Below, piece after piece: positions 1,016 to 42,639 of a stretch of DNA of 42,639 bases. Origin of the DNA: a virus; the IMG/VR virus record IMGVR_UViG_3300045051_000149, positions 1 to 42,639 of that record; one strand, given 5' to 3'. Positions within the stretch are counted from its first letter, which is position 1. Every line of letters begins with the position of its first letter. A model generated the notes under the pieces. That model saw nothing but the letters and a program-made list of their open reading frames with translations, was not told the DNA's origin and did not search any database. A program made the position numbers and the translations under genes.

Positions 1016-1951
1016 ATGGGAACGCCGCTCACGCTGTTGGAGATCGTCCAGACGGCATGTCAGGAACTCGGCCTGAACGCGCCGGCCACCGTTGTCGGTT
1101 CACAGGACTTGCAGGTTATCCAACTGCTCGCCCTGGTGAACCGCGACGGCAACGAACTCTATCGGTCCAAGGACTGGACGGCGCTGAGCGGTGAACACAT
1201 TGTCAACCTGCAAACGCCGATCACGGTGACCGGGGATGTGGTTGAGGGCTCGACCACGGTCAGCAACACGACCACGGCAGGGATAGCGGCTGGAGCCTAT
1301 TCGGTTTCCGGGGACGGCCAGCCAGCGGCGCAAAGGGTGCTTTCCATCACCGATGCGACCACGCTCGAACTGGAAATGGAATCGACGGCTACCGCCGTAG
1401 GAACTTCTCTGATCTTTGCCCGGGATACCTACACGATCCCCTCTGATTTCGATCATTACATCTCGCATACATGGTGGGACCGAACCAATCACTGGATGCT
1501 GGTCGGGCCTCAGTCTCCGCAGTTCGACCAGTGGCAGAGATCCGGCATCGTCACGACAGGCCCGCGGCTTCGCTGGAGGCAAATCGGCGTAAGGCCAACC
1601 GTATTTCGGCTATGGCCGCCTCCGACAAGCGCGAGCACGCCGGATGCCTTGGTGTTCGAATACATCAACGATGGCTGGGTCCAGCACATCGACGGCACGT
1701 TCGGCAACAAGTTCACGGCCGACACTGATATTCCGCTATTGAACGATCAGATGTTCATCCTCGGGGTGAAATGGCGCTTCTGGCAAATAAAAGGCTTTGA
1801 TTATGGAGCGATGCAACAAGAGTGCCTCGATTTCGTGAACCGTGAAAAGGCGCGGGACGGCGGTATGCCAGACCTACAGATGGGCCGCAGGAAGCAGCCT
1901 TACCTCATCACGACTGGAAACGTGCAAGACGGCAACTTCCCGGGGAATTGA
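1016..1951 (+). CDS. Head-tail adaptor (tail tubular protein A-like)
   Basis: This 311-residue protein starts with the signature of podovirus adaptor proteins: a helix beginning LLEIVQTACQELGL, then LLALVNRDGNELYRSKDW at about residues 38-56. It continues with a beta region (YTIPSDFDHYI; then RPTVFRLWPPP) and a C-terminal helix with LGVKWRFWQIKGFDY. In this family the protein forms the ring joining portal to tail nozzle. The next gene overlaps its stop and encodes the nozzle, which fits that role. Assignment is from sequence pattern only. Confidence 0.75.
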   Translation: MGTPLTLLEIVQTACQELGLNAPATVVGSQDLQVIQLLALVNRDGNELYRSKDWTALSGEHIVNLQTPITVTGDVVEGSTTVSNTTTAGIAAGAYSVSGDGQPAAQRVLSITDATTLELEMESTATAVGTSLIFARDTYTIPSDFDHYISHTWWDRTNHWMLVGPQSPQFDQWQRSGIVTTGPRLRWRQIGVRPTVFRLWPPPTSASTPDALVFEYINDGWVQHIDGTFGNKFTADTDIPLLNDQMFILGVKWRFWQIKGFDYGAMQQECLDFVNREKARDGGMPDLQMGRRKQPYLITTGNVQDGNFPGN

Positions 1952-3597: not shown

Positions 3598-4004
3598 TCC
3601 TCCTTGGTCATGATGAGGCCGTTGCCAATTGGGTTTCTTCCTTCACGGGGAAGCCGTTTCATCCGCCTTATACCGCATTTGGCACGATCCATGAGGGTCG
3701 GATAACCGGCGGCTTTGTCTTCACGGGCTTTAACGGCACCTCGATCGAACTTTCCCTTGCAGGCCATGGGGTGACGCATCGTGGGCTCTGGCGGGCCATT
3801 CTCCATTACGTGTTCGACCAGTTAAAGGCTGATCGGATTCAGATCCACACCGCGACAAGTAATGATGTCGTCAAGAAACTTGCCCCACGTCTTGGGTTTG
3901 CGTTCGAAGGCAAATCACGTAGATACTACGGTCGAGAGGATGCCTTCGTTTATTCGCTTGTTCGGGATGACTTGCCGTCATTCCGGCGACGATGGAGGCT
4001 ATAG
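3594..4004 (+). CDS. GNAT-family acetyltransferase-like protein
   Basis: This 136-residue protein has the GNAT layout. A central beta-strand pair with GFVFTGF is followed by an acetyl-CoA-binding helix region (GVTHRGLWRAILHYVFDQL) and the strand RIQIHTATSN. It ends with KLAPRLGFAFEGKSRRYYGRED, the usual GNAT C-terminus. Its ATG overlaps the nozzle stop by four bases (ATGA) and the next gene begins directly after its stop, so it is embedded in the tail operon. The substrate is unknown; it may modify a virion protein or, after entry, a host protein. Confidence 0.72.
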   Translation: MILLGHDEAVANWVSSFTGKPFHPPYTAFGTIHEGRITGGFVFTGFNGTSIELSLAGHGVTHRGLWRAILHYVFDQLKADRIQIHTATSNDVVKKLAPRLGFAFEGKSRRYYGREDAFVYSLVRDDLPSFRRRWRL

Positions 4005-11114: not shown

Positions 11115-11681
11115 ATGGAACAGGTCAAGGTATTTCTTATAGTTGCATTGATGTTGCTGGCTGGGCAGGCCAGTGCGCAAACCACTATCGGACCAACTTG
11201 GGAAACAGTCAGCACGTTTCATGTCAACACTGGGCCGCCGCGCCAGTATATTGGCCCGGTGTTTGTGATCTCGTCGAACTCGCCACCGTCAGGCCCTCCA
11301 GCGGACACATGGCAGGAAGTGGATTTGACCGCAGCGCCTTGGAATGTCGGGGTGACGGCAAAAGCCGCCTTCCTTGCTGGTCTGGTCATCATCTCAAGCG
11401 GCAATTCGGCACCGGAAACCGACAGCGCGGGGATCATCTTTCGCGCGCCGGGCGATACCCGCATCTCATGCAGCACTGCCAATTTTATCGGTCAGACCAT
11501 TTTCCAGGTGAATACGGTTAGCGGCGTCATTCTTGGCGGCGGCCAGCGGGCGGCGATGGCAACATGGGTGCCTGTCGTTAATGGCAAGATCGAATATTGC
11601 TGGACCCGAAACACTACGGGGTCTTGGCCAAATTCTGGAGCCTACGGCTTTAATCTCGCCGTACAGGCATGGGCTGAGTAG
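11115..11681 (+). CDS. Exported protein with N-terminal signal peptide, function unknown
   Basis: This 188-residue protein has a clear Sec signal peptide: a charged start (MEQVK), the hydrophobic core VFLIVALMLLAG and the cleavage motif QASA-Q at about residue 22. The mature part is beta-rich with two cysteines (in RISCST and EYCWTR) that could form a disulphide. It sits between the fibre genes and the lysis cassette. A signal peptide is unusual in a virion operon and suggests a periplasmic or envelope role in the infected cell, such as receptor masking, rather than a fibre. Confidence 0.65.
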   Translation: MEQVKVFLIVALMLLAGQASAQTTIGPTWETVSTFHVNTGPPRQYIGPVFVISSNSPPSGPPADTWQEVDLTAAPWNVGVTAKAAFLAGLVIISSGNSAPETDSAGIIFRAPGDTRISCSTANFIGQTIFQVNTVSGVILGGGQRAAMATWVPVVNGKIEYCWTRNTTGSWPNSGAYGFNLAVQAWAE

Positions 11682-11682
11682 C

Positions 11683-11716
11683 CCCTATACAAATCAATTT
11701 TGCCGCGGGTAAAAGT
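11683..11716 (+). promoter_or_regulatory. 34-bp late-region motif, copy 1
   Basis: CCCTATACAAATCA at 11683-11696, a 13-base variable spacer, then TAAAAGT at 11710-11716. The same two blocks at identical spacing recur at 13752-13785 and 34621-34654. This copy follows the stop of the exported-protein gene and precedes the endolysin gene, whose own AAGGAGG site lies between motif and ATG 11747. It is probably a promoter or other late control element. Confidence 0.65.
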
Positions 11717-13337: not shown

Positions 13338-13751
13338 ATGACGGCTTATCAATGGGTGACGCTGGGGCTGGGGGCTCTTGGGTTTTTGGCTACCTGGATT
13401 TTAGGAGCATTCAAACTCGGCCGGGCCGTTGAGCAAATGAGGTCGGAAATCCAGGGAGAGATCGAGCAAGAGCGCGACGAATTATTAGGGAAGCTCGAAA
13501 AGCTTGAGGAAGAATTTGAGGAACGCCAGCGCACGCAAGACCAACACTTCGGAGAGGTAGGCGCTGCCATGCGACAATATACAGCCGATGTTGAGAAGAA
13601 GCTTCGCGAGGTCGAAATCTACGGCCGAGACAATTACGTCAAGATACCTGACTTTGAGAAGGCCATCGACCGGATGGGAGAGACCTTCAAGGCAGCCGTG
13701 ACCGAATTGAAAGAGGATATGAGGCGCATTTTGCGGACCCCGCCGCACTGA
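13338..13751 (+). CDS. Membrane-anchored coiled-coil protein, spanin-like
   Basis: This 137-residue protein has one N-terminal membrane helix (about residues 5-26, VTLGLGALGFLATWILGAF). A long charged coiled coil follows (residues 33-90, rich in E, K, R and Q, e.g. IEQERDELLGKLEKLEEEFE) and then more helix. This topology resembles an inner-membrane spanin (Rz-like), which joins inner and outer membranes in the last lysis step. No separate Rz1-type lipoprotein was found nested or downstream, so the assignment is tentative. Confidence 0.5.
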   Translation: MTAYQWVTLGLGALGFLATWILGAFKLGRAVEQMRSEIQGEIEQERDELLGKLEKLEEEFEERQRTQDQHFGEVGAAMRQYTADVEKKLREVEIYGRDNYVKIPDFEKAIDRMGETFKAAVTELKEDMRRILRTPPH

Positions 13752-13785
13752 CCCTATACAAATCAGATTCGACGCACATAAAAGT
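13752..13785 (+). promoter_or_regulatory. 34-bp late-region motif, copy 2
   Basis: CCCTATACAAATCA (13752-13765), a 13-base spacer containing GATTC, then TAAAAGT (13779-13785). It starts directly after the stop of the spanin-like gene. A GAGAGG ribosome site and ATG 13809 follow, so it heads the second structural block. Confidence 0.65.
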
Positions 13786-13808: not shown

Positions 13809-14135
13809 ATGTCCGGAACGAATCTGTTTACGCCAAAGGCGCAGGGCACCACATCGATCACATCTGCGGTGACGACAGCGCGGGTTTTGCTGACAAAGCC
13901 GTCATCCGCCATGCAGATCCGGGTCAAGAACATCGACGCCACGAATATCGCCTATGTCAACTTTGGCGATTCAACCGTGGTCGCGACTGTTCCTTCAGGT
14001 GCCACACCGGGGTCAATGCCGATCGGAGCCGGCGAGACTGCCGGCTTTACCGTCCCAGAAGGGACGACGCACGCGGCTTCAATATGCACGGCCGGGACGC
14101 CGATCGTGTTCTTCACGCCGGGGAATGGCACATGA
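13809..14135 (+). CDS. Small beta-rich virion protein
   Basis: This 108-residue protein has the pattern of small phage surface proteins: ARVLLTKPSSAMQIRVKNID, then AYVNFGDSTVVATVP, PIGAGETAGFTVPEG and a C-terminal IVFFTPGNGT. It begins the block of fibre and spike genes downstream of motif copy 2. No catalytic residues are seen. It could be a decoration, collar or fibre-adaptor subunit. Confidence 0.6.
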   Translation: MSGTNLFTPKAQGTTSITSAVTTARVLLTKPSSAMQIRVKNIDATNIAYVNFGDSTVVATVPSGATPGSMPIGAGETAGFTVPEGTTHAASICTAGTPIVFFTPGNGT

Positions 14136-21062: not shown

Positions 21063-22343
21063 TTATCGGGTCGTCTCTTTGTTCTTCCGGCTATCGATCC
21101 GGGCCTGCATTACCTTGGCGGTCGCCTTTTCCTGGCCCCGGTCATAGGCCGCGGTCTGGGAAACGTCGCTGTGCGTCGCCGCGTGGCGCACCATCTCGAT
21201 CGGCATCCCGGCCGCAATGGCCTCTGTGATCGCTCCTGAGCGGCTGTCCATGTTCCATGTGTCCTTGGGCACCCCAGCCGCGGTTGCTACCTTGCGCCAC
21301 TTCCTGCGCCATTCGCAGTCGGTCCACGGCAGGCCGTTGGTATCGCAGATCACGATCGGCCCTGACGCCGGCAACAGGTGCCGATGGACGGTGACCTTCT
21401 TGGTGGCCTTGTCGATCGTCACCACCGGCTCGCCGCCAGTCAGTTCCCGCAGTTCCTCAAGGACCATCGGCGCCAGTTTCAGATCGACCGTGGTTTCCTT
21501 CTGCTTCTTGCTGGTGACGTGGCGCAAGATCAGGTTTTCGTCGATCTCCTGCCATGCGATGCCGCGGATCCACTTCTCCGACTTGTCGATAACGTCGGAC
21601 AGGCCGGGCTCGTCAAGGGGCACCCATTCGCCGATGATGTCCTTTTGGCGCAAGGTGCATTCGAACTGGAACGCCTGCCCGAGAGCCATCGAATACCATC
21701 CGAAATGAAGCCGGGCCTTGTAGCGAACGGCGTCTGCCTGTTCTGCCGTCAGCGTCTTTCTCCGCGGCCCGCGGCCCTCGGCCCGGAAGTCCCTCATGAT
21801 CATGCCCAGGCGCACGCAATCCTCGACGCCAAGTAGGGACCGGCCAAACGAGAACAGCGTCCGCAGTTGCCCGACATAGGCCTTCCCGGTTGCTAGCTTC
21901 ACGCCATCGCCCGTCCATTTCTTGTACCAGGCGATGATGGTCCGGCCGCCGATGTCTCCCAGATCCTCGTCGCCGTGCCACTCGGCGAGGCGGCGCAGCT
22001 TGTAGTCGGTGTTCGTCCGCACCTTGAAGCGCAGCTTATGGTATCGGGAATCCGGGTCGGTCTGGTAGCAGTTGATCAGCGAACGCAATGTGCCATTGAA
22101 CGCGGTGACAGCCGGCAAACCGCCGCGGCTGAACGTCAGCATTTCATCCTGTAGGCGCCGGCACGTATCTTGGATGAACGCGATCTCGGTTTCGTTCGGC
22201 TCGTCGCCGACGAATAGCTGCTGGCTCTTTGGCTTGAACCCCTTGTCGATCAGATCGGTGCGGCACTGCCAGCGGCATTCCCAGCCCTTGACGTGCTTGC
22301 GCCAGATGTGGCCAGGCGCTTCCGTCATTTTCGGATGTGTCAT
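21063..22343 (-). CDS. int: Tyrosine-family phage integrase
   Basis: This 426-residue site-specific recombinase has Arg232 in the CTLRQKDIIGEW block, a SKKQKE beta-hairpin lysine near 280, Arg368 in MDSRSGAITEA, His391 in ATHSDVSQ and the nucleophile Tyr400 in TAAYDRG. The usual His of the HxxR motif is Met here (MDSR). The N-terminal 190 residues would bind arm sites and core. The ATG overlaps the excisionase-candidate stop (ATGA), so the two are made together. It gives the phage its lysogenic ability. Confidence 0.9.
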   Translation of the reverse strand: MTHPKMTEAPGHIWRKHVKGWECRWQCRTDLIDKGFKPKSQQLFVGDEPNETEIAFIQDTCRRLQDEMLTFSRGGLPAVTAFNGTLRSLINCYQTDPDSRYHKLRFKVRTNTDYKLRRLAEWHGDEDLGDIGGRTIIAWYKKWTGDGVKLATGKAYVGQLRTLFSFGRSLLGVEDCVRLGMIMRDFRAEGRGPRRKTLTAEQADAVRYKARLHFGWYSMALGQAFQFECTLRQKDIIGEWVPLDEPGLSDVIDKSEKWIRGIAWQEIDENLILRHVTSKKQKETTVDLKLAPMVLEELRELTGGEPVVTIDKATKKVTVHRHLLPASGPIVICDTNGLPWTDCEWRRKWRKVATAAGVPKDTWNMDSRSGAITEAIAAGMPIEMVRHAATHSDVSQTAAYDRGQEKATAKVMQARIDSRKNKETTR

Positions 22344-22645: not shown

Positions 22646-22816
22646 TCACGGTGTTTTTGCACCCTCTGACGGAGACAGCGCGTATTCCCACCCATCGAAC
22701 CCGCCGCCGATATTCCACCAGGCATAAAGCGGGCGCCGGAATGGCGGCTTCCAGAACAGCCACATCGGGGTTGCTTGCCAATCCCCACACGGGCAACGGT
22801 AGGCTTCGCTAATCAT
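22646..22816 (-). CDS. Small tryptophan-rich protein with CxC motif
   Basis: A 56-residue ORF with ATG 22816 overlaps the stop of the PAPS-reductase-like gene (ATGA). It has YRCPCGDWQ near the start and many aromatic residues (WLFWKPPFRRPLYAWWNIGG). Its coupling to the upstream ATP-pyrophosphatase-type gene suggests a shared pathway. Family not recognised. Confidence 0.6.
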   Translation of the reverse strand: MISEAYRCPCGDWQATPMWLFWKPPFRRPLYAWWNIGGGFDGWEYALSPSEGAKTP

Positions 22817-23556
22817 GCCGGCTCCATTTCGGCTAGGTGGCAAAGGAAGTCGCACGCTGGCACAATCGGGCTCGTCATCGGCCAGTCGGCTGGGATCTCG
22901 TCAATGAAGATCCGCACGTCGTTGATGCGAGTCAGCCGGCAGCCGATCTCGCGGGCATATGCGGCTGTCCGCGCGAAGTTCTCAGGGAAGTGGTGCCGGT
23001 ACAGCGACCAGTAATCCGGGCTCGTAGCCTTCACGCAGCCGGTCTGTAGGCAGTTCGCGTTGGGGAAGCCCATCGCATAGGACCGAGGCAGGGCAACGCC
23101 CCAGCGCTCTACCAGGGCCAAGCAGGCGGCTTTAGTCACGCCTTGGTCGATCAGCGGCACGCGGACGGTAAGCTCTGGATAGTTCGCCTTTAGCCGCTCG
23201 AACCTGTCTACGTCCTCGGCGTCGGCCGTGTAGCCGAACACATGGGTATCGGTCGGCTTCTGGAACGCCAAGCGGGGCGCAATCTTCATGGCTGCGGTGC
23301 AAGGCGCCCCAGCAATCCCCGACATATAGCGGCGCTTCTGCCAAACATCCCACACGTTTTCATACTCATCTGAGTTGAGCAGGGTCATGGTCCGGTTGAG
23401 CAGCCGCATTATGTCGGCTTCAAAGCGGTAGTTGTCGGGGTCTTCGTTTGATGTTTCACAGCGCACAATCATCCCGTCAGGATGACGCCACAGCGCGAGC
23501 TGCGCCATGACCGCGCTGGCGGCACCAGTTGACCACCAAATAAGGGTGCGGCTCAT
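22813..23556 (-). CDS. PAPS-reductase / ATP-pyrophosphatase superfamily protein
   Basis: This 247-residue protein opens with a strand and PP-loop-like turn (LIWWSTGAASAVMAQLAL, residues 5-22), comparable to the SGGxDS loop of PAPS reductases and N-type ATP-pyrophosphatases. It continues with CETSNEDPDNYRFEADI, then VWQKRRYMSGIAGAPC and later NCLQTGCVKA. The cysteine pair could hold a metal or sulphur intermediate. Related phage proteins exist but their reaction is unknown to me. It overlaps both neighbours by four bases. Confidence 0.72.
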   Translation of the reverse strand: MSRTLIWWSTGAASAVMAQLALWRHPDGMIVRCETSNEDPDNYRFEADIMRLLNRTMTLLNSDEYENVWDVWQKRRYMSGIAGAPCTAAMKIAPRLAFQKPTDTHVFGYTADAEDVDRFERLKANYPELTVRVPLIDQGVTKAACLALVERWGVALPRSYAMGFPNANCLQTGCVKATSPDYWSLYRHHFPENFARTAAYAREIGCRLTRINDVRIFIDEIPADWPMTSPIVPACDFLCHLAEMEPA

Positions 23557-31064: not shown

Positions 31065-31828
31065 ACCACTGGTGGCGCGCATATAACGAAGCGGTCAACG
31101 ATCCGAAGCTCCAGCTCATTTCGGATGCGTTGTTCCGCGCATGGTTCAACCTGATGTGTATTGCATCAGCGAACGATGGAGCGTTGCCGGCGCTCAAAGA
31201 CGTAGCATTCACACTTAGGCTTGCGCCGGCCAAGGCCGCTCAGATTTTGGCGCAGCTTCATGCGGCTGGGTTGCTCGATAAAACTGAGACTGGTTTTGCT
31301 CCTCACAATTGGAGCGGTCGTCAATATAAGTCGGACGTTTCAACCGATAGAGTGAAACGTTTCAGAAACGGTCATAGAAACGTTTCATCCGGAGTTACAA
31401 AGACCGTTTCTGAAACGCCCCCAGATACAGATACAGATACAGATACAGAAGCGCTCCCTACGGTCGCGCAGCGCGCGCCGAAGAAACGGCCACAAAAATT
31501 GCCTGATAGCTGGGTGCCTTCCGAGAAGGCATACCAGATTGCCGAGCAATTTGGGCAAAACGTCCAGGTCATTGAGCAAATATTCCGGGATTATATCGCT
31601 TCATCCGGAAAACTTTATGCAGACCATGATGCGGCATTCAACAATTTCATTCGCAATCAGAGCAACTTCAATCGAGGCGGGAACAATGGAAAACCTCAGT
31701 CTAAATCCAGCGGAAGCCTGCTCGACGCAATCGACCGAGAACTTGCAAAAACAGAACTCTCGGAAGAGTTTGATCCTGCGTTGTCAGCGAATTCTATTCT
31801 CCGCATACCGCAGCGATCAATACGCTGA
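31061..31828 (+). CDS. O-like replication initiation protein
   Basis: This 255-residue protein uses GTG 31061, overlapping the gapR stop (GTGA). The N-terminal winged-helix-like domain (about residues 1-90) has LFRAWFNLMCIASANDGALP and AAQILAQLHAAGLLDKTE. It is followed by a low-complexity linker with four Asp-Thr repeats (about 122-129) and a C-terminal helical domain (SYQ-like PSEKAYQIAEQFGQNV, then DHDAAFNNFIRNQ). The layout matches lambda O-type initiators whose gene contains the origin. No phage helicase is seen, so host DnaB is probably recruited. Confidence 0.7.
   Translation: MNHWWRAYNEAVNDPKLQLISDALFRAWFNLMCIASANDGALPALKDVAFTLRLAPAKAAQILAQLHAAGLLDKTETGFAPHNWSGRQYKSDVSTDRVKRFRNGHRNVSSGVTKTVSETPPDTDTDTDTEALPTVAQRAPKKRPQKLPDSWVPSEKAYQIAEQFGQNVQVIEQIFRDYIASSGKLYADHDAAFNNFIRNQSNFNRGGNNGKPQSKSSGSLLDAIDRELAKTELSEEFDPALSANSILRIPQRSIR
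31354..31447. other. Candidate replication origin inside the O-like gene
   Basis: GAAACGTTTC occurs twice (31354-31363 and 31377-31386). CGTTTCAGAAACGGTC (31358-31373) has an exact inverted copy at 31402-31417. Four tandem GATACA units (31424-31447) follow, encoding Asp-Thr repeats. Dense iteron-like repeats in the linker part of an initiator gene are the lambda-type origin arrangement; initiation here is inferred. Confidence 0.6.
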
Positions 31829-33152: not shown

Positions 33153-33267
33153 CGGATGGAGACCGAGGCAGTACCAGATGAAAGCCTGGGCTGCCTGGGA
33201 GAAAGGAGTTCGGCGGTCCCTCCTTGTGTGGCACCGCCGATTATTCGGGCAGGCAAGGACGAGTTGA
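33127..33267 (+). pseudogene. N-terminal fragment of TerL, cut off by frameshift
   Basis: ATG 33127 opens the expected TerL N-terminus (PKIYIPANGWRPRQYQMKAW, then RRSLLVWHRR). Where family members read WHRRAGKDE (Walker A), this frame has eight extra bases, about 33240-33247 (ATTATTCG), and runs on to a stop at 33267. Removing those eight bases would restore WHRR-AGKDE exactly. The fragment is therefore the broken 5' end of the gene continued at 33156-34619. Confidence 0.75.
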
Positions 33268-34619
33268 GCCTGCAGAAGTTTGCCGTTGCAAGCCAGCTTC
33301 GTCCAGCGAACTACTGGCATTGTCTGCCGCATTACGAACAGGCCCGCAAAGCGATCTGGGAAGCGGTTAACCCGCACACAGGAAAGAAGCGCATCGATGA
33401 AGTATTCCCGATGGAGATTAGGAAGCGGACGGATAATTCATCAATGGTCGTGGAGTTCAAAACAGGGTCCGTCTACCGGGTCGTGGGAAGTGATAACCCG
33501 GATTCATTGGTGGGCGCTCCACCTTTGGGTATTGCATTCTCCGAATGGGCTATCAGTAATCCTAGCGCCTGGGGTCTTCTCCAGCCTATTCTTCTGGAGA
33601 ACGGCGGGTGGGCAGACTTCATCACAACACCAAGAGGGCGCAACCACGTCCACGGCATGCTTAAAATGGCCAGAGAGCGGCCAGAATCGTGGTTCTCACA
33701 AGTCCTGACGGTAGACGACACTGGCCAGGTAACGCATGAACAGATTGCGGAAGCCAAGGCAGGCTATGTCTCGCTATTTGGGGAAGAAGCGGCCGAGGCC
33801 CTGATACAGCAGGAATACTGGTGCAGCTTTGAGGCTGCGATCTTGGGCAGCTATTACGGGAAGGAACTAGCCAATGCCGAGCAGCAGGGACGAATTACTG
33901 ACGTGGAACCTACTGGTGGAATTCCCATCCACACCGCTTGGGATCTCGGAGTGGGGGACAGCAATCCCATTTGGTTCTGGCAAGCTGTCCCTGGAATTGC
34001 AGGGCGAGGACAAATCAAGATTCTCGATTACTACACGGCGCATGGGTACGGAATTAAGCATTACGCTGACGAAGTTAAGCGACGGATCGGATATTGGGAC
34101 AGTGAAGACAGAGCCAGAGGAGGCGAAGGCTTCAGACTCGGCATCAACTACGTGCCCCACGATGCGACGGTTCGCGAACAGGGTAGCTGGAATGCCGATA
34201 CCCTGAAAGCCAAACAGCGCATCGAGGTCATGGCCGAGCAATTCGGCCAGTCTCACGTCAAGGTCGTCAAACAGCACTCCATTCAGGACGGAATTTCCGC
34301 AGTGCGGCAGATATTGCACCGCTGCTGGTTCGATGAAACGCGATGCGCAAACGGCCTTGAAGCGCTTCGCCAGTATCAATCCGAATGGGACGACAAGAAA
34401 AAGAAATTCAGGGACGAACCATTGCATGACTGGACCAGCCATCCGGCCGATGCTTTCAGGTATCTCGCCATGGCTTACCGTGAGATCGTGCAGATGGTTC
34501 CGGCGCCAGAACCTAGAGCACTGGTTATTGGCGGCCCTGAAGCGCTTCCATCTGGCATGCAGGGCGTGACAATGGAAGACCTCTGGAAAGAGCAGCGGCG
34601 CAAACGACGCCGCATGTAG
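33156..34619 (+). CDS. terL: Terminase large subunit (TerL), 5' end frameshifted
   Basis: The open frame encodes 487 residues, but true TerL sequence starts only at RAGKDELSLQKFAVASQL (about residue 31). Visible are NYWHCLPHYEQARKAIW, the Walker B/coupling region VVGSDNPDSLVGAPPLGIAF, FITTPRGRNH, and the nuclease acids in AWDLGVGDSNPIWFW and DWTSHPADAFRYLA. The residues before 30 are out-of-frame readthrough of the authentic start. TerL powers DNA packaging and cuts it. With the Walker A loop split, this copy would be inactive unless the shift is an assembly or strain-level error. Confidence 0.85.
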   Translation: METEAVPDESLGCLGERSSAVPPCVAPPIIRAGKDELSLQKFAVASQLRPANYWHCLPHYEQARKAIWEAVNPHTGKKRIDEVFPMEIRKRTDNSSMVVEFKTGSVYRVVGSDNPDSLVGAPPLGIAFSEWAISNPSAWGLLQPILLENGGWADFITTPRGRNHVHGMLKMARERPESWFSQVLTVDDTGQVTHEQIAEAKAGYVSLFGEEAAEALIQQEYWCSFEAAILGSYYGKELANAEQQGRITDVEPTGGIPIHTAWDLGVGDSNPIWFWQAVPGIAGRGQIKILDYYTAHGYGIKHYADEVKRRIGYWDSEDRARGGEGFRLGINYVPHDATVREQGSWNADTLKAKQRIEVMAEQFGQSHVKVVKQHSIQDGISAVRQILHRCWFDETRCANGLEALRQYQSEWDDKKKKFRDEPLHDWTSHPADAFRYLAMAYREIVQMVPAPEPRALVIGGPEALPSGMQGVTMEDLWKEQRRKRRRM

Positions 34620-34620
34620 C

Positions 34621-34654
34621 CCCTATACAAATCAAAATTGTCTCGCATAAAAGT
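34621..34654 (+). promoter_or_regulatory. 34-bp late-region motif, copy 3
   Basis: CCCTATACAAATCA (34621-34634), 13 bases, TAAAAGT (34648-34654), starting two bases after the terL stop. The portal ATG at 34660 follows only five bases later and no Shine-Dalgarno separates them, unlike the other two copies. Confidence 0.65.
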
Positions 34655-34659
34655 TCGGC

Positions 34660-37128
34660 ATGGCCGAAAAGCGCGACAACGAAGACAGCCCGGAACAGTC
34701 TGCTTGGCAGCGCTGGAATGACGAGCTTGAACTAGCTCGCAAAGCCAAGGGCTTTGACAACTGGACAACCAGGTCAAAGCGGATCGTCAAGCGCTACCGG
34801 GCTGACCGCGGCGATATCAGCGAGAACGCCGACAATCTGGAGGGTGCACGGTTCAACATCCTGTGGTCGAACGTGCAGACGCTCATGCCGGCGCTGTTCG
34901 CCAAATCGCCCAAGCCGGTTGTCGAGCGCAGGTATCTTGACCGGGACGATGTAGGCCGAACTGCCTCAGTCATCCTGGAGCGCACGCTGTCCTATGAACT
35001 GGACGACGGAACGTATCTTTCGGCTCTCAAGAAAGGCGTGCTGGACAGGCTCCTGCCGGGCCGTGGCGTGGTCTGGATTCGATACGAGCCGAAGTTTACC
35101 CCAATGCCGGGGAAGACGCAGGAGGCTAAGGATGCGGCTCCTATCGCGTCTGGAATGGCTCCTGTCTCCGCTGATATGGCTTCTGATGTTGCTGATCGTC
35201 CTTCGCCTGGCATTCAGGAGGCAACATCAGAAGCCCCAACCGAGCAGGTAGCCGACGAATCTGTGGTGGTCGATTACATCGACTGGCGGGATTTCCTGAC
35301 TTCGCCCGCAAGGACATGGGAGGAAGTATGGTGGGTTGGCAAACGAGTCTATATGACCCGGGAGGAGTTGGTTGCCCGATTTGGGCCAGTCGGCAAGGAA
35401 CCGACTTTGGACTGGTCTCCGGTCGAAACCACGTCATCTGCGGTTGGCCAATCGACGGAAGGCAATACCAAGCAGCGTCGAGCAAAAGTCTGGGAAATCT
35501 GGAACAAGCAGGCCCGCAAGGTCTACTGGATGGCCGAGTCCTACAAGGACAAACTCCTTGACCAGAAGGATGATCCGCTCGGCTTGGAAAGCTTCTGGCC
35601 GGTTCCGAAGCCGCTTTACGCCACGCTGACCAACGATTCGCTGATCCCGGTTCCTGACTATGTGGAATACGAGGACCAGGCGAACGAACTTGACGAACTG
35701 ACCACGCGCATCACCAACCTGGTCAAGACGATCAAATCGTGCGGCGTCTATGACGCTTCGGTTGGCGAACTCAAGCGCATGTTTGAAGAGGGGTTTGAGA
35801 ACGAGCTTGTTCCCTGCGACAACATGGCTGAATTCTCTTCCAAGGTCGGCGCCAATGGGATGGGACATATCTGGCTGCTCCCGATCAAGGATATGGCAGC
35901 CACGCTAATCCAACTATACGAGGCGCGGGAGCGGACCAAGCAGGTTCTATACGAGGTCACCGGGATCTCGGACATTGTTCGCGGTTCGTCACAGGGCGGG
36001 GCCAAGACAGCCACGGAACAGCGCATCAAGGGTCAGTTTGCCTCGATGCGGTTGAACGATATGCAGGCCGAGGTCGCCCGGTTCGCGCGGGATACGCTGC
36101 GGATCATGGGCGAGATCATCGCCGAGCATTTCGACCCGATGACGCTGTTCGAGATTTCCGGGTTCGAGCAGTATGCCAAGGAGCAGTGGCCGCCGGAAGC
36201 GCCATCGCCACCGATCGCACCGCCAGATCCGATGATGGGCCACAATGGCGGCCCGCCTCTTGAAGCTCCAGCCGGGTCTGCTCAACCGGCCGTTGGCTCG
36301 CCTGCTCCCGGGATTGCATCCTCCCCCGGGGGCGGGCTGACGCCGCCTATGGGCATGATGGCGCCGCCGCCTGATCCGAACATGATGGCGATGCAAAAAG
36401 CCGCCGATATGTTCAAGAAGGCGGTAGCCCTTTTACGGGATGACAAACTGCGCGGCTTCCGGATCGACATCGAGACGGATTCGATCATCGAGCCTGACCA
36501 GCAGCAGATGCAGCAGGCGCGAACTGAGCTGATGGGCGCGATTTCTCAGTTTCTGCCGCAAGCCATGCAGGCCGGTGCTCAGTCACCTGAGCTTAAGCCC
36601 TTGCTGGCTCGGCTGCTGATGTTCTTCCTGCGCGGCTTCAAGGCATCGCGGGATATCGAATCCGCCTTTGAGCAGTTCATCGACGATATGACGCGGGATG
36701 CCGCCAAGCCGAAACCGCCGCCGCCTCCGACGCCTGACCAGATCAAGGCGCAGATGATGCAGCAGCAGCAGGAGAACGAGAACAAGCGCATGGAAGCGCA
36801 GGCGCAGATGGATCAGGCCAATTTCGAGCGGGAACAGCAGGCCAAGCAGACTGACATGCAGATGCAGCAGCAGATGGCGCAACAGCAGTTCGAGCTTGAA
36901 CAGCAGAAGCAGGTCGCTGAAATCCAGGCCATGGCAGACAAGCAGGCGATTGAGCGCGCTAGGTTGCAAATGGAATTTGAGCACGAGGAACGCATGCTTG
37001 TTCTGAAAGAGCGGGCCGCCACCCAAGCCGCGGTGGTCAAGGCTGCGAGTGTCGAGCATTCGGCCGCCATGCAGGCAAAGGTAGCCGAGAAGAAAGCGAA
37101 GGCACCAGCGAACGGAGCTAATGCATAA
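34660..37128 (+). CDS. Portal protein
   Basis: An 822-residue portal of the podovirus type. Residues 1-100 contain FDNWTTRSKRIVKRYRADRG and FNILWSNVQTLMPALFAKSP. The core includes VVDYIDWRDFLTSPARTWEE, YEDQANELDELTTRITNLVK and VTGISDIVRGSSQGGAKTAT, followed by the long helix EQRIKGQFASMRLNDMQAEV. A Pro/Gly-rich linker (about 511-577) and a Gln/Met-rich coiled coil (about 691-790) form an unusually long C-terminus, possibly the internal barrel. It forms the dodecameric entry vertex with TerL. The start lies just behind motif copy 3. Confidence 0.85.
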   Translation: MAEKRDNEDSPEQSAWQRWNDELELARKAKGFDNWTTRSKRIVKRYRADRGDISENADNLEGARFNILWSNVQTLMPALFAKSPKPVVERRYLDRDDVGRTASVILERTLSYELDDGTYLSALKKGVLDRLLPGRGVVWIRYEPKFTPMPGKTQEAKDAAPIASGMAPVSADMASDVADRPSPGIQEATSEAPTEQVADESVVVDYIDWRDFLTSPARTWEEVWWVGKRVYMTREELVARFGPVGKEPTLDWSPVETTSSAVGQSTEGNTKQRRAKVWEIWNKQARKVYWMAESYKDKLLDQKDDPLGLESFWPVPKPLYATLTNDSLIPVPDYVEYEDQANELDELTTRITNLVKTIKSCGVYDASVGELKRMFEEGFENELVPCDNMAEFSSKVGANGMGHIWLLPIKDMAATLIQLYEARERTKQVLYEVTGISDIVRGSSQGGAKTATEQRIKGQFASMRLNDMQAEVARFARDTLRIMGEIIAEHFDPMTLFEISGFEQYAKEQWPPEAPSPPIAPPDPMMGHNGGPPLEAPAGSAQPAVGSPAPGIASSPGGGLTPPMGMMAPPPDPNMMAMQKAADMFKKAVALLRDDKLRGFRIDIETDSIIEPDQQQMQQARTELMGAISQFLPQAMQAGAQSPELKPLLARLLMFFLRGFKASRDIESAFEQFIDDMTRDAAKPKPPPPPTPDQIKAQMMQQQQENENKRMEAQAQMDQANFEREQQAKQTDMQMQQQMAQQQFELEQQKQVAEIQAMADKQAIERARLQMEFEHEERMLVLKERAATQAAVVKAASVEHSAAMQAKVAEKKAKAPANGANA

Positions 37129-37424: not shown

Positions 37425-37756
37425 CCGTTGTAGAGACCGTCAAGCGCATCTGCATGGAAGAGGCGAAGCGGCTTACCGGCGCTGAAGTCGTCGCTCCGCT
37501 TGCGGTATGGGACAACACGCAGGGCTCAATGGGCGTTCAGATCAAGGCCCCGAAGCAGATGGGTCCGCAGGCTTGTGAAGTGGTTGCAGGTTTCACGTTG
37601 ACGCCGGCAGAACTCAGGCAGGGCAATTCCATTCGTCTCAAGGCCGCGGTGGCGGTTAGCGGCATGCTGCATGACGTTCAGGTGCAGATCCGCCCGATGC
37701 AGAAGCTCAAGGATGTCGCGCCAGAGGCGCTGTTAGGGAAACGACATGCCGATTGA
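37421..37756 (+). CDS. Small head-operon protein
   Basis: This 111-residue protein, coupled by ATGA overlap, has an N-terminal helix (VVETVKRICMEEAKRLTG) then beta strands (MGVQIKAPKQMGPQACEVVA). It overlaps the scaffold start by 11 bases. No family recognised; an assembly role is inferred from the operon. Confidence 0.6.
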   Translation: MTVVETVKRICMEEAKRLTGAEVVAPLAVWDNTQGSMGVQIKAPKQMGPQACEVVAGFTLTPAELRQGNSIRLKAAVAVSGMLHDVQVQIRPMQKLKDVAPEALLGKRHAD

Positions 37757-38873
37757 AGGCGAACTGACGGCACCGGATGACTCGCTGCGCAGCGAGCTAG
37801 AGGCCGCTTTCGGGGGTGGGGATGAAGCTTCGCAAGGATCATCCTCCGAGGCCAGTCCGAACGACGCAGGAGATGCACACCAATCCGCCGTGGTGGATCA
37901 GGTATCACCCGCCGATGACACCGGGAAAGAGGCATCTTCGGATGGGCGGCAACACGGCCCGGACGGTAAGTTCATCGCGAAAGATCAAGCGGCGCCCGTA
38001 GCGGCTGACGCACAAGTAACCCCGTCCACGGACGCAACGAAGGCAAGCGAGGTAGCCGCCCAAACGGCGAACGCCCCTCCCGTTGGCTGGACGGCTGCTG
38101 AGAAGGCTGAATGGTCGAAACTCTCCCCAGCGGTCCAAGCCGCTGTATCAAGGCGAGAGATGCAGGCCAATGAAGGTCAACAGCGGTGGTCCGAGCAAAA
38201 ACGGCAGTATGAAGCCGTGCTATCACCTGTCGCGGAAGCGGCTCGTCGAAACGGGATGAACACCGAGCAGGGGCTCCAGGCCTTGCTCAACGCTCAGTCC
38301 TTCCTCGAACGGGATCCGCTTGGTGCGATCAAGTGGCTGGCACAGTCTCATGGTGTCAACCTCGCAACACTTGCCGGTCAGCCCGACGAGGTTTCGAGCG
38401 CACAAGCCCCAGACATCGAGGCGATTGTTCGACAGGCCGTCCAACGGTCAGTTGCCCCCATTGTTGCTCCAATTCAACAAAGGTGGCAGCAGGAAGAACA
38501 GCGCCAGCAGGAGATGACCACTCAAATGGTCGTATCCTTCGCCGCATCAGAAGGTCATGAGCATTTCGGCTCGGTTGAGCAGGATATCATGGACCTCATC
38601 CCCCCGCTGAAAGAGCGTAACCCGACATGGACTCCCCAGCAGGTTCTGCAGGAAGCCTATGACCGGGCCGTATTCGCCAATCCCGCAACCCGCCAGACCA
38701 TCCTGACGGCGCGCGAGACGGCAGCGGAAGAGAAGCGGCGAACCGAGGCAGCTCAACGAGCAACAAAGGCTCGTGGTGCGGCCGTGTCTGTAACCGGCTC
38801 TCCGCAGGGATCTGCGGGACAGGAACCGGCGGCTTCACTGCGCGACGAAATCATGAGGGCGATGACCGGCTGA
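37746..38873 (+). CDS. Scaffolding protein
   Basis: This 375-residue protein has the usual scaffold composition. An acidic, Ser/Asp/Ala-rich disordered N-terminus is followed by a helical part with GWTAAEKAEWSKLSPAVQAA at about residue 113 and ERDPLGAIKWLAQSHGV. A Gln/Glu-rich coiled coil (QQRWQQEEQRQQEMTTQMV) and a short charged C-terminus complete it. It directly precedes the major capsid gene, which it would help assemble before leaving the head. Confidence 0.8.
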   Translation: MPIEGELTAPDDSLRSELEAAFGGGDEASQGSSSEASPNDAGDAHQSAVVDQVSPADDTGKEASSDGRQHGPDGKFIAKDQAAPVAADAQVTPSTDATKASEVAAQTANAPPVGWTAAEKAEWSKLSPAVQAAVSRREMQANEGQQRWSEQKRQYEAVLSPVAEAARRNGMNTEQGLQALLNAQSFLERDPLGAIKWLAQSHGVNLATLAGQPDEVSSAQAPDIEAIVRQAVQRSVAPIVAPIQQRWQQEEQRQQEMTTQMVVSFAASEGHEHFGSVEQDIMDLIPPLKERNPTWTPQQVLQEAYDRAVFANPATRQTILTARETAAEEKRRTEAAQRATKARGAAVSVTGSPQGSAGQEPAASLRDEIMRAMTG

Positions 38874-38892: not shown

Positions 38893-39918
38893 ATGGCCTC
38901 TCCCGGCCTAAGTGAAATCGTTACCACGACGCTGCGAAACCGCAGCAAGAAGCTCGCAGACAACATGCTGCGCAATAACGGCGTCATGACCCGGCTCAAC
39001 AGCCGCGGCAACGTGAAGCCGTTTGACGGTGGCCGTACCATCGTCCAGGAACTCGAATACGCCAACAATAGCACTTACAAGCGCTATAGCGGCTACGAAG
39101 TCCTCAACATCCAGCCCAGCGATGTCTTCACCGCTGCGGAATTCCCGATCCGCCAGGCGGCGGTCGCGGTCTCCATCTCCGGTCTGGAAATGCTCCAGAA
39201 CTCCGGGCGGGAGCGCGTGATCGACCTTCTGGAAAGCCGCATCAAGAACGCCGAGAAAACGTTCATGAACGGCCTGTCCTATGACTTCTATTCCGATGGA
39301 AGCCAGACGGCGCAGATCGGCGGACTGCAGTTCCTCGTTGCCTCGTCCCCGTCCACCGGCATCGTCGGCGGCATCGATCGGGCAACCTGGTCGTTCTGGC
39401 AGAACCAGACCTTTGCAGCGACCGCTACCGGCGGCGCGGCAATCTCTGCGTCCAACGCCTACAGCTACATGCTCAGGCTCTACACCAGCCTGGTGCGGCA
39501 GCAGGACCGGCCGGATCTCTGGCTGGCCTCGGACGTGGCATGGCGCGCATACAGTGAATCGCTGCACGCGATCCAGCGCATCACCTCGACCGACAACGAT
39601 CTTGCCAAGGCCGGCTTCATGAATCTCAAGTTCATGGATTCGGATGTTGTGCTGGACGGTGGCTTCCAGGGCACGACCTCGGACGGCAACAACTTCGGCG
39701 CAGCCGGTGCTGGTGCGGTTGGCGGCATTCCTTCGGCCGTCAACTTCTATGCGCTGAATACCGACTACATCTACTGGCGCCCTCACAAGGACCGCAACAT
39801 GGTGCCGCTGGACCCGGATCGGTTCTCGGTCAACCAGGACGCAATGGTGAAACTGATTGGCGTGGCGGGCAATATGACCGTCTCCAATTCGTTCCTCCAG
39901 GGCGTCATGACCACGTAA
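38893..39918 (+). CDS. Major capsid protein
   Basis: A 341-residue coat protein. N-terminal SEIVTTTLRNRSKKLADNML and NNGVMTRLNSRGNVKPFDGG, then IVQELEYANNSTYKRYSGYE and TAAEFPIRQAAVAVSISGLE, are typical of podovirus coat proteins with the HK97 fold. The P-domain-like helix RVIDLLESRIKNAEKTFMNG and C-terminal YWRPHKDRNMVPLDPDRF support this. Good Shine-Dalgarno (AAAGGAG). It is followed by a probable head-decoration protein. Confidence 0.85.
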   Translation: MASPGLSEIVTTTLRNRSKKLADNMLRNNGVMTRLNSRGNVKPFDGGRTIVQELEYANNSTYKRYSGYEVLNIQPSDVFTAAEFPIRQAAVAVSISGLEMLQNSGRERVIDLLESRIKNAEKTFMNGLSYDFYSDGSQTAQIGGLQFLVASSPSTGIVGGIDRATWSFWQNQTFAATATGGAAISASNAYSYMLRLYTSLVRQQDRPDLWLASDVAWRAYSESLHAIQRITSTDNDLAKAGFMNLKFMDSDVVLDGGFQGTTSDGNNFGAAGAGAVGGIPSAVNFYALNTDYIYWRPHKDRNMVPLDPDRFSVNQDAMVKLIGVAGNMTVSNSFLQGVMTT

Positions 39919-39929
39919 GGAGAACCGAT

Positions 39930-40484
39930 ATGGCTTATTCCACTTTGAACCTTGAAGGCGTCAATCTATCGACGCTTTACACCGCCTACGACCAGACGGC
40001 GGCGATCAGTTCGACCAACACGCCCGACAATCCCGGCCCGCAGTTCGCTGTGGGTACCGAAACTGTCGCGACCGATGGCTCGATCTGGCTGTTCGTGAAG
40101 TTCACGGGCGGCGTCAACCAGTACGATGTCGTCATGATCAACCCGGCCACCGGCGGCGCCGCTCAGATCCTCGGCGGCGGCGCGTCGGAATGCAACAAGA
40201 TGCGGGTAGGGTTCTACCAGAACTCGACCGCTGCGGTTGCAAACAACTACGGCTGGGTGATGGTCTCGGGCGTTCCGACCATCAACGTGCTCGGTTCCTG
40301 TGCCAAGCTTGTCCAACTCTACACCACGGACACGTCGGGCAAGCTGGATGACGCGATTGCGACCGGCTCTCAATACCCGGTTCGCAATGTCACGCTGACG
40401 ACCACGATCAGTTCTACCACGGCCTCGTTCAACACGGCGCAGGCCGCGTGGCCGAGCGTTGGGCCGCTGGGGGCGCTGCTTTGA
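39930..40484 (+). CDS. Probable head decoration/accessory protein
   Basis: This 184-residue protein follows the capsid gene by 11 bases with AAGGAG upstream. It is beta-rich with GTETVATDGSIWLFVKFTGG and VNQYDVVMINPATGG, patterns seen in small head proteins next to coat genes. Two cysteines are present. It might be a target of the glycosyltransferase encoded next. No enzymatic motif. Confidence 0.65.
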   Translation: MAYSTLNLEGVNLSTLYTAYDQTAAISSTNTPDNPGPQFAVGTETVATDGSIWLFVKFTGGVNQYDVVMINPATGGAAQILGGGASECNKMRVGFYQNSTAAVANNYGWVMVSGVPTINVLGSCAKLVQLYTTDTSGKLDDAIATGSQYPVRNVTLTTTISSTTASFNTAQAAWPSVGPLGALL

Positions 40485-41203
40485 ACCCTTCTATCTACAT
40501 TGGCTACGATTCGCGGGAGGCGGAAGCATTTTCCGTCGCCCGCGCGTCGGTTCAAGAACGTTTGACCATGCCGATCCCGATCATGGGGCTGGTGCTTCGA
40601 TCCTTGCGCAATCGCGGGCTCTATTACCGCCCCACTGAATTACGCCCCTCGGCGGCTGACAAGCCGGTTTTGTGGGACACGATTTCTGACGCGCCGATGG
40701 CGACTGAATTCGCAATCTCCAGGTTTCTTGTCCCAACCCTGGCGCAGCGCGGTTGGGCGCTGTTCATGGATTGCGACATGATGATGCTGACCAATGTTGC
40801 AAGGCTGTTTGAAGGTCTGGATCGGTCGAAGGCGGTCTATTGCGTCAAACACCGGCATACCGCTGGTCCGAAAACCAAGATGGATGGCCAGTTGCAGACG
40901 TTCTACGTCCGCAAGAACTGGTCCTCGTTCATGGTGCTGAACTGCGATCATCCGTCCAACAAGCTCCTGACGGTCGAAGCGGTGAACACCCTGCCGGGCC
41001 GGGATCTGCATCGGTTCTGCTGGCTGCAGGACGACGAGATCGGCGAACTTGATCCATCCTGGAATTTCCTTGTCGGGCATTCCGACCCTTCCATCCAGCC
41101 GAAGAACATTCACTGGACCAGCGGCGGGCCGTGGTTCCGGGAATATGAAGACGTTCCCTATGCGGAAGAGTGGCGCGACGCCCGCGACAAGGCGGTGGCC
41201 TGA
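40481..41203 (+). CDS. GT-A glycosyltransferase, GT8-like
   Basis: About 240 residues from TTG 40481, overlapping the preceding stop (TTGA). N-terminal PSIYIGYDSREAEAFSVARA is a GT8-type opening. The metal and sugar-nucleotide DxD motif is Asp97-Cys-Asp99 in ALFMDCDMMML, and HWTSGGPWFREYEDVP (residues 211-226) resembles the C-terminal His block of the family. It would transfer a sugar from a nucleotide donor. Its place among virion genes and coupling to the next enzyme suggest modification of a phage structural protein, which is inference. Confidence 0.75.
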   Translation: MNPSIYIGYDSREAEAFSVARASVQERLTMPIPIMGLVLRSLRNRGLYYRPTELRPSAADKPVLWDTISDAPMATEFAISRFLVPTLAQRGWALFMDCDMMMLTNVARLFEGLDRSKAVYCVKHRHTAGPKTKMDGQLQTFYVRKNWSSFMVLNCDHPSNKLLTVEAVNTLPGRDLHRFCWLQDDEIGELDPSWNFLVGHSDPSIQPKNIHWTSGGPWFREYEDVPYAEEWRDARDKAVA

Positions 41204-42492
41204 TGCAGCTCATCAGCGACAGCTACCGCGCTTTGCAGGCTGATCTTCACGCCCGGTTCAACTATGGCCATGGCGGGGATGCAGAAGAATGCGCCGGCAT
41301 CGTGCGTGGCCTCAATGGGTCGTCCGTCCTCGATTATGGCTGCGGCCAAGGCCATCTGGCGCATCTGCTGTATGGATACGAGGTCGAGGAATACGACCCC
41401 GCCATTCCGGGCAAGGAAGGTGAGCCGGCCAAGGCCGATATTGTTGTTTGTGCGGACGTGCTCGAGCATATCGAGCCTGACTTGCTCGGCAATGTGTTTT
41501 TGCACCTGTATGCCCTCACGCGGAAACATCTGGTCCTGATTATCGCGACCCAGCCTTCAAAGAAGATCATGGCTGACGGGCGAAGCGCACACCTGATCGT
41601 GCAGAATGCCGACTGGTGGCATTCCAAGCTATCCGGTTTGTTCGAGTTCGATCGGTTCGAGAACCGATCGGGGGAAGGGCGGGGCATTCTTGCGGTTTGC
41701 CGGCCCCGCGCATTCGATGTCCCGCTGCTTCTCCCTGTGGTCAAGATTCGCTCGCAGGCCGCTGTTTCCGATGAAGAACGCAATGACCAGATGCGGGCGA
41801 ACTGCGCGCGGATCAAGGAACGCCTTGAAATCGACCTCCCTCCCCATGACCGGACAGCGCATCTGGTCTGCTATGGGCCTTCGCTCGCAAGGACATGGCC
41901 GCTGGTTGCAATGGCAAGAGCGGTTGGGGAGGACGTGTTTACCGTTTCCGGTGCCCATCGGTTCATGATCGACCACGGGGTTATTCCCCAGGTCCATATC
42001 GACTGCGATCCAAGACCGCACAAGGCGCTCCAGATCGGCGATCCGCATCAGGATATCCAATACTGGCTGGCCTCCTGCATCTCGCCTTTCTATCTCGACA
42101 AGCTTCAAGGGCATGACGTGAAGCTGTGGCACAGCTACAACGGAACGGCTTCCCGCATCGCATTCCAGATCGACCCGGACCAGAAGATGGTGGTCGGGGG
42201 AGGCAGCATTGGCCTTCGCGCGATGTCGATCCTCTACGCCCGCGGATACCGGGAATTCGAGATCCACGGCATGGACTGTTCCTTTGAGAACGGGGAAGCC
42301 CATGCCGGCGCCCACCAGGGGAAAGCGCAAGAATTCGTTTCCGTGAAATGCGGCGACCGCTGGTTTGAGACCTCGGCCGTATTCGTTCTCTATGCGCGAT
42401 TCTTCCATAAACAATTGTCGATGATGCCCGACGCAATTATCAATCTGCACGGCGATGGGCTGTTGCAGAACATGAACAGGAGCGATGCATGA
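41203..42492 (+). CDS. SAM methyltransferase fused to DUF115/MptE-like (Maf-type) domain
   Basis: This 429-residue protein starts at ATG 41203, sharing a base with the glycosyltransferase stop (TGATG). Residues 40-165 are a class I methyltransferase with motif I VLDYGCGQGHL (42-52) and post-motif II CADVLEHI (83-90). Residues 219-415 resemble DUF115/MptE: HLVCYGPSL, VFTVSGAHRFMIDHGVIP, VHIDCDP, VGGGSIGLRAMSILYARGYR, EIHGMDCS. This fold is found in flagellin glycosyltransferases of the Maf group. With the GT it forms a compact sugar-modifying unit. Confidence 0.75.
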   Translation: MQLISDSYRALQADLHARFNYGHGGDAEECAGIVRGLNGSSVLDYGCGQGHLAHLLYGYEVEEYDPAIPGKEGEPAKADIVVCADVLEHIEPDLLGNVFLHLYALTRKHLVLIIATQPSKKIMADGRSAHLIVQNADWWHSKLSGLFEFDRFENRSGEGRGILAVCRPRAFDVPLLLPVVKIRSQAAVSDEERNDQMRANCARIKERLEIDLPPHDRTAHLVCYGPSLARTWPLVAMARAVGEDVFTVSGAHRFMIDHGVIPQVHIDCDPRPHKALQIGDPHQDIQYWLASCISPFYLDKLQGHDVKLWHSYNGTASRIAFQIDPDQKMVVGGGSIGLRAMSILYARGYREFEIHGMDCSFENGEAHAGAHQGKAQEFVSVKCGDRWFETSAVFVLYARFFHKQLSMMPDAIINLHGDGLLQNMNRSDA

Positions 42493-42639
42493 GTGATTTC
42501 GGAAGTATGGAGCAGCATTTCGACGCGCGGAACGGCGGAATTGTCGAGTTCGGCAACGATGCCCGTTTGTTCGTTGAGTTCTACAGCCGCTCGGTGCGGG
42601 ATGAAGTGGCCAGCAAGGAAAGAGATCGCCCGGTCCATG
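42463..42639. repeat. Right copy of the terminal direct repeat
   Basis: Repeats bases 1-177 with two synonymous differences (42503 and 42512). The last 127 bases are exact. It contains the end of the methyltransferase-DUF115 gene and the beginning of the next gene. Confidence 0.9.
42489..42639 (+). CDS. 5' part of the coiled-coil head/tail-region gene (partial copy)
   Basis: ATG 42489 overlaps the TGA of the methyltransferase-DUF115 gene and encodes the first 50 residues of the protein complete at 27-626, cut by the window end. The encoded residues are identical despite two base changes. Confidence 0.85.
   Translation, partial: MSDFGSMEQHFDARNGGIVEFGNDARLFVEFYSRSVRDEVASKERDRPVH

Follow-up and report, generated by a model that had tools for sequence, protein, structure and literature searches.

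The glycosyltransferase gene and the methyltransferase-DUF115 fusion gene in the virion operon of an Mx8-like podovirus are one allele of a variable slot, nested in its make-up, which lies between the genes for a head protein (HDP) and a homologue of Mx8 p50 and changes its content together with HDP. That these enzymes come, go and swap with the neighbouring head-surface protein suggests a sugar coat on that protein, and we hold it to be somewhat probable that the pair is one allelic form of an exchangeable cassette for modifying the virion, in which the DUF115 enzyme would start a glycan on HDP and the glycosyltransferase and methyltransferase would elaborate it.

Genome organization and the late operon

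The window (the whole stretch of DNA that was analysed, an IMG/VR virus record of 42,639 nt) carries a direct repeat at both ends, so the record is circular and closes to ~42.46 kb. The features on which the analysis draws are as follows, with the strand where it was recorded.

1-177 and 42463-42639, no strand: terminal direct repeat, 177 bp, 99% alike
27-626, + strand: homologue of Mx8 p50 (phrog_20268), the next gene past the cassette in the closed genome, with its start repeated at 42489
641-1006: gene between the p50 homologue and the adaptor/tail gene
1016-1951, + strand: adaptor/tail protein, SU10-adaptor-like, at the Mx8 p51 position (phrog_6013, 5e-36; PF24175, weak)
1948-3597: gene after the adaptor/tail gene in the late order across the join
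3594-4004: GNAT gene, after gene 1948-3597
21063-22343: integrase
33156-34619: terminase, late gene
34660-37128: portal, late gene, followed by two small genes
37746-38873: scaffold-like late gene
38893-39918, + strand: major capsid protein (MCP), homologue of Mx8 p48 (phrog_9953, 1.6e-101; NCBIfam capsid_maj_Podo, 299 bits; 42% identity to Mx8)
39930-40484, + strand: HDP, a head protein of 184 aa at the Mx8 p49 position with a Ser/Thr-rich C-terminus, proposed acceptor (phrog_29386 in 17/30 relatives; Phage_cement_2, weak, in 3/30)
40046-42488, + strand: block different or absent in the nearest relatives, comprising the HDP body, glycosyltransferase and methyltransferase-DUF115 fusion (blastn of the window against L171 and L172)
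40481-41203, + strand: GT8-like GT-A glycosyltransferase, 240 aa, TTG start (phrog_28018, 7e-57; Foldseek WbbM/GlyE/LgtC, 1e-8 to 6e-8; PF01501 in 28/40 relatives)
40769-40777, + strand: D97-C-D99 metal/nucleotide-sugar motif of the glycosyltransferase, D97 and D99 invariant in 40 sequences
41203-42492, + strand: methyltransferase-DUF115 fusion, 429 aa (AlphaFold pLDDT 90.7)
41314-41697, + strand: class I SAM-dependent methyltransferase domain, residues ~38-165, motif DYGCGQG (Methyltransf_23, 33.9 bits; Foldseek to SAM methyltransferases)
41788-42489, + strand: DUF115/MptE-like (Maf central-domain-like) domain, residues ~196-429 (PF01973, 50.8 bits; PDB 5mu5 Maf, profile E 6e-7, fold E 8e-7)

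In the closed genome the late genes run from terminase through portal, two small genes, the scaffold-like gene, MCP, HDP, the glycosyltransferase and the fusion, and continue across the join with the p50 homologue, gene 641-1006, the adaptor/tail gene, gene 1948-3597 and the GNAT gene. An earlier note, made from the sequence of the window, had placed the enzyme pair between the head protein and tail genes, and once the record is closed this placement holds. The capsid identity to Mx8 p48, together with the homologues of Mx8 p49, p50, p51, p52 and p53 that follow MCP in the Mx8 order, identifies the virus as an Mx8-like podovirus.

The cassette is tightly packed: the TTG start of the glycosyltransferase overlaps the upstream stop by 4 nt (a relative, L001, has ATG at the same place), and the last base of its TGA stop is also the first base of the fusion's ATG, so that the coordinates, order and one-base overlap reported previously were all correct. 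The search for a terminator or promoter separating the cassette genes gave no signal above chance, the coding strand being free of promoter-like sites, and the G+C content of the cassette does not mark it as foreign. Both enzyme genes are under purifying selection (dN/dS against L001, where dS is near saturation, of 0.18 for the glycosyltransferase and 0.07 for the fusion), and these ratios, with the preservation of cassette order in L001 at 77% and in L014 at 43% identity, argue that the cassette is not a product of chance.

Several other features of this genome lie outside the cassette. A 39-nt repeat (CCCTATACAAATCA...ATAAAAGT) occurs in three copies that are 72-85% alike (11678-11716, 13747-13785 and 34616-34654), each shortly upstream of a gene (a lysozyme-like gene at 11747, a gene at 13809 and the portal gene at 34660), and is a candidate family of phage-specific promoters. 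A 24-nt inverted repeat (88%) with a 12-nt loop is found at 31358-31417, upstream of the late genes. On the - strand, a PAPS-reductase-like gene (22813-23556; phrog_424), which matches the PADLOC model SspD at 3e-10, possibly acts in sulfur-based nucleic acid modification or counter-defence.

Domains of the two enzymes

The AlphaFold model of the glycosyltransferase (pLDDT 93.7) is matched by Foldseek to GT8/GT24 structures (WbbM, GlyE, LgtC, glycogenin and UGGT), and it predicts a GT-A fold with the DxD motif, a membership feature of GT8 glycosyltransferases. The earlier description of the enzyme as GT8-like with a DxD motif was right at the level of the family, in which PF01501 (GT8) is hit at E<=0.1 by 28 of 40 relatives, with a best value of 4e-8; the copy in the window itself hits no Pfam family. 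At least 598 relatives of this phrog_28018 protein were found in an alignment-based scan of IMG/VR.

The second gene had been read as a fusion of a class I methyltransferase with a DUF115/MptE-like domain, and both halves exceed the Pfam curated cut-offs, Methyltransf_23 over residues 38-118 (cut-off 27) and PF01973 over residues 214-363 (cut-off 34.6). The first half is a class I SAM-dependent methyltransferase, with the Rossmann methyltransferase fold and a glycine-rich motif I. Searched against the PDB, the DUF115 profile ranks Maf (5mu5) first (6e-7) and MptE second (2e-3), an order that Foldseek reproduces with the predicted model, and 31 DUF115 relatives conserve, fully or almost fully, a GP(S) motif, a DPR motif and one residue each of His, Gly and Asp. 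The NCBIfam FlagModPseD (PseD) model left the window unmatched, and relatives scored 17-20 bits against its cut-off of 670; defence-system models did not match the pair. When IMG/VR was searched with the single sequence of the fusion, L001 was the sole match, the other relatives being reached by profile searches, and in tblastn against sequenced phages the methyltransferase half alone was matched. An assembly artefact was ruled out as the source of the fusion, which is also present in L001, L014, L092 and others; fusions in the reverse order, DUF115 before methyltransferase, exist in L023 and L053.

Contents of the slot across relatives

Relatives were gathered by profile scans of IMG/VR, from each of which 80 loci were taken (the capsid has at least 580 relatives in that resource). 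By manual count, 75 of the 80 loci found with the DUF115 profile, many of them from one clade, have HDP or MCP homologues upstream and/or p50 or adaptor homologues downstream; a random placement of the pair in related genomes, named in advance as evidence against a virion role, was thus not what the survey found. The capsid-profile scan, which was not selected for DUF115, yielded 67 loci with both capsid and adaptor, and a DUF115 gene lies between HDP and the p50 homologue in 19 of these and in none of the other 48. Among the 19, three also contain a glycosyltransferase and a methyltransferase, three a methyltransferase and one a glycosyltransferase, so that such enzymes are found in 7/19 slots with DUF115 versus 0/48 without it (Fisher 6e-5). 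Since DUF115 can stand alone in the slot (L171, L189 and L195), and glycosyltransferases or methyltransferases occur there solely with DUF115, DUF115 is the core of the cassette and the other two enzymes are optional additions. The pair had been viewed as a coupled unit; this view stands for the window, where the two genes occur together, and fails across the relatives, where the slot is variable and only the DUF115 core recurs without the others.

The arrangement of the enzymes also differs among loci. Glycosyltransferase precedes methyltransferase-DUF115 in the window, L001, L092, L094 and L106 and follows it in L095, L108 and L161, loci of the L126 type have two DUF115 genes with a methyltransferase between them, and in L096 and L240 DUF115 is fused to other methyltransferases. 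Other fills of the slot include a GDP-mannose 4,6-dehydratase (L110:5040-6140), a TPR-GT9 protein (L183:7873-9327) and further methyltransferases. In bacterial genome contigs, 3 of 28 capsid loci have a DUF115 slot (L255, L267 and L275, on MAG contigs of Gemmatimonadaceae, Bdellovibrionaceae and Rhodopila, respectively). As a separate observation, TPR proteins fill the slot in both L183 and L182 (3440-4879), one of them with a GT9-like stretch, and a TPR protein is also present in the same region of MW202512.

Glycosyltransferase, methyltransferase and DUF115 genes outside the slot

A DUF115 gene is present in 16 of the 80 loci found through the glycosyltransferase (L011-L090; manual count). 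In another lineage, methyltransferase, glycosyltransferase and DUF115 genes travel together beside the portal gene: in L019, L021, L022, L024 and L025 the glycosyltransferase and DUF115 genes lie just upstream of a portal-like gene, and in several of these a methyltransferase gene precedes the glycosyltransferase gene. Caulobacter giant phages have neighbouring glycosyltransferase and methyltransferase genes downstream of their tail genes, the Manatee Spring podovirus MW202512 has a methyltransferase and a glycosyltransferase gene between its capsid and tail genes, a methyltransferase gene follows the coat gene in Roseobacter phage CRP-9, and many Pelagibacter-type phages have the glycosyltransferase in sugar clusters that lack DUF115. 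In Tetraselmis viridis virus S20 (L008, 5695-11278), an unrelated phage, a large block between the head genes and the head-closure gene carries sialyltransferase, glycosyltransferase and methyltransferase annotations, the same idea in a different setting.

Co-exchange of the cassette with the head protein

HDP is proposed to be an exposed decoration protein on the basis of its position and weak family matches, phrog_29386 being a family of virion structural proteins. In blastn comparisons of the window with L171 and L172, similarity stops at 40045 and 40039, respectively (about codon 37-39 of HDP), and resumes at 42489 and 42479. L171 shares 99% identity with the window in MCP, 95% in p50 and 93% in the adaptor versus 40% in HDP, and its slot holds a lone DUF115 gene (30% identical) with no glycosyltransferase or methyltransferase; L172, whose slot is empty, shares 95% in MCP and 94% in p50 versus 42% in HDP. 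The reverse is seen with L001, which shares the cassette and is closer to the window in HDP (84%) than in MCP (78%) and far closer than in p50 (45%).

The same pattern recurs in a second clade, in which L185 and L197 (MCP 90%) share 54% identity in DUF115 and 84% in the HDP body, L195 and L197 (MCP 91%) share 24% and 28%, and L185 and L195 share 29% and 26%. Over all pairs with MCP identity of at least 88%, HDP body identity is 26-48% if the cassettes differ (8 pairs, 3 clades) and 47-89% if they are alike (22 pairs), and in pairs with MCP identity of at least 78%, subtracting MCP from HDP body identity gives a higher value for like cassettes than for different ones (p=0.0002, for pairs that share phylogeny and are not independent). 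When all classes were lumped no HDP difference was seen, because one large clade (L124-L170), in which methyltransferase detection flickers, dominated the comparison; clade representatives were used thereafter. The HDP of cassette phages is also richer in Ser+Thr by 2.8 points (30 matched pairs, p=0.004), versus 0.9 for MCP. These comparisons show that slot content and HDP are inherited together.

HDP varies among phages with empty slots as well (L177-L180, for example, have 47% identity in the HDP body at 96% in MCP). Fast evolution of HDP was rejected as the sole cause of its divergence, in that, for the same capsid identity, HDP is far less alike between phages whose cassettes differ than between those whose cassettes match. 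An HNH/homing-endonuclease-like ORF, absent from the window, lies between capsid and HDP in L001 (8032-8730) and L172 (9028-9732) and could drive exchange of the HDP-cassette block.

A partial Mantel test of HDP against DUF115, given MCP and p50, gave r=0.51 (p=0.0005), versus r=0.23 for the p50 control given MCP and HDP. In a rank test against DUF115 given MCP, the values were 0.39 for HDP, 0.32 for the next tail gene, 0.25 for the adaptor, 0.22 for p50 and 0.02 for the scaffold control; HDP is therefore the strongest but not the sole correlate of DUF115 and, since it adjoins the slot, part of its co-inheritance may be plain linkage. These values bear on an explanation that we regard as unlikely, namely that the cassette glycosylates another virion protein, the major capsid or a tail protein, and that HDP covaries merely as the neighbour of the slot. 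The adaptor and tail gene correlations (r 0.25-0.32) are in its favour, as is the precedent of mycobacteriophages, whose major capsid and tail tube proteins are the phage virion proteins known to be glycosylated (as cited in PMC12619734 and PMC11256854). MCP, however, is nearly identical between the window and L171 despite their different cassettes, which argues against it as the target. On the far side of the slot p50 is just as close, yet it is conserved at 94-95% in these comparisons and its correlation is weaker than that of HDP, which argues against neighbourhood alone.

Proposed explanation

In the preferred reading, modification of HDP, the Maf-like DUF115 core enzyme would attach a sugar from a host-made activated donor to Ser/Thr residues of the co-expressed HDP. 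The donor could be a CMP-linked nonulosonic acid, a sugar suggested only by analogy; no nucleotide-sugar synthesis gene was seen in this phage's slot. The GT8-like enzyme would then add a hexose from a UDP-sugar and the methyltransferase would cap the glycan by O-methylation, so that the surface of the capsid would carry a coat of methylated glycan, which may hide or diversify the virion. More tentatively, and at somewhat less than even odds, the slot may be one in which phages exchange, as one substrate-enzyme allele, a protein of the capsid surface together with the Maf-like O-glycosyltransferase dedicated to it and, in some cases, hexosyl- and methyltransferases, a source of switchable glycan coats and a virion counterpart of flagellin glycosylation.

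The earlier note had allowed for either a virion protein or a host surface component as the target, and the evidence supports it in part: a virion target fits both the place of the cassette in the virion operon and the tracking of HDP by cassette identity. It is improbable that the enzymes instead act, in lysogeny or infection, on a glycan of the host surface (LPS, capsule or flagellin), causing a superinfection block or serotype change. Such a function would suit a phage with an integrase, enzymes of both kinds have such targets elsewhere (LPS for GT8 members like LgtC, flagellin for Maf), and the same glycosyltransferase family is present in larger sugar-gene clusters of Caulobacter giant phages and Pelagibacter T4-like phages. 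It is opposed by the position of the cassette in the late operon, with one-base overlaps and no promoter-like site of its own, by the association with HDP, and by the neighbourhood of the cassette, where no membrane flippase or gtr glycan-translocation partner was seen. That the genes are hitch-hiking morons in a tolerated insertion site, acting in DNA modification or small-molecule (pterin) metabolism rather than on a virion target, is very unlikely: DUF115 is named after the pterin pyrophosphokinase MptE and phage glycosyltransferases can modify DNA (as cited in PMC12619734), but Maf is closer than MptE in sequence and fold, the other slot genes encode glycan enzymes, whose company in a virion operon argues against pterin chemistry, and the exchange with HDP is a dedicated one.

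Significance

If HDP is glycosylated as proposed, virion glycosylation, for which a few mycobacteriophages supply most of the documentation, would extend far outside the mycobacterial phages. The podovirus lineage is widespread, and a Maf-like core at one constant slot in it would make such glycosylation a common and recognisable property of phages that are Gram-negative or environmental, with an acceptor that is predicted. DUF115 would also acquire a function other than those in flagellin and pterin metabolism, and compact protein O-glycosylation enzymes with a defined acceptor would become available. The natural pairs of phages with capsids 95-99% identical and slots that are filled, different or empty are ready-made tests of the role of a virion glycan in stability, adsorption, avoidance of binding or immune recognition. 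Literature searches, which covered few subscription papers, returned nothing relevant on DUF115/MptE-like proteins in phages and no description of this slot or of a pairing between a Maf-like enzyme and an exchangeable head protein.

Comparison with known systems

The closest relative of the late operon is the Mx8/Pr-like podovirus module of the Myxococcus phage Mx8 (PMC10386132), which has the same order of terminase, portal, scaffold-like gene, MCP p48, p49, p50, tail p51, p52 and GNAT p53 but differs in that p49 and p50 are only 28 bp apart, i.e. the slot is empty; the main text of that account contains none of the terms glyco, methyltransferase, decoration or moron. The glycosyltransferase shares the GT-A fold and DxD motif of the GT8/GT24 enzymes LgtC, GlyE, WbbM, glycogenin and UGGT (Foldseek E 1e-8 to 1e-6), yet is only 10-16% identical to those structures. 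MptE, the archaeal 6-hydroxymethylpterin pyrophosphokinase (PDB 8sd5), has the same Pfam family and core fold as the DUF115 domain but is a weaker match than Maf.

Maf enzymes transfer nonulosonic acid to Ser/Thr of flagellin. With the Maf flagellin O-glycosyltransferase of Magnetospirillum (PDB 5mu5), the fusion has in common the central DUF115/Maf_flag10 domain (PF01973), and an O-linked sugar on Ser/Thr of a particle subunit, as proposed here, would be the same chemistry. Maf from Clostridium botulinum (CbMaf) is described in PMC11339370 as having N-terminal Rossmann-like, central and C-terminal helical domains; the phage fusion, whose 429 aa comprise a methyltransferase followed by DUF115 only, lacks the first and last of these, has a methyltransferase in front and adjoins a capsid gene rather than flagellin. 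The best reading is that the phage fusion may work like Maf without belonging to it, given the absence of the three-domain architecture.

Mycobacteriophage virion glycosylation, in which phage-encoded glycosyltransferases are proposed to modify virion proteins and glycans are placed on capsid and tail-tube C-termini (Freeman et al. 2023, cited in PMC12619734 and PMC11256854), is the functional precedent. No mycobacteriophages were among the records matched by the glycosyltransferase or the methyltransferase half, and the system described here differs in its Maf-like core and in the exchangeable head protein that adjoins the enzymes.
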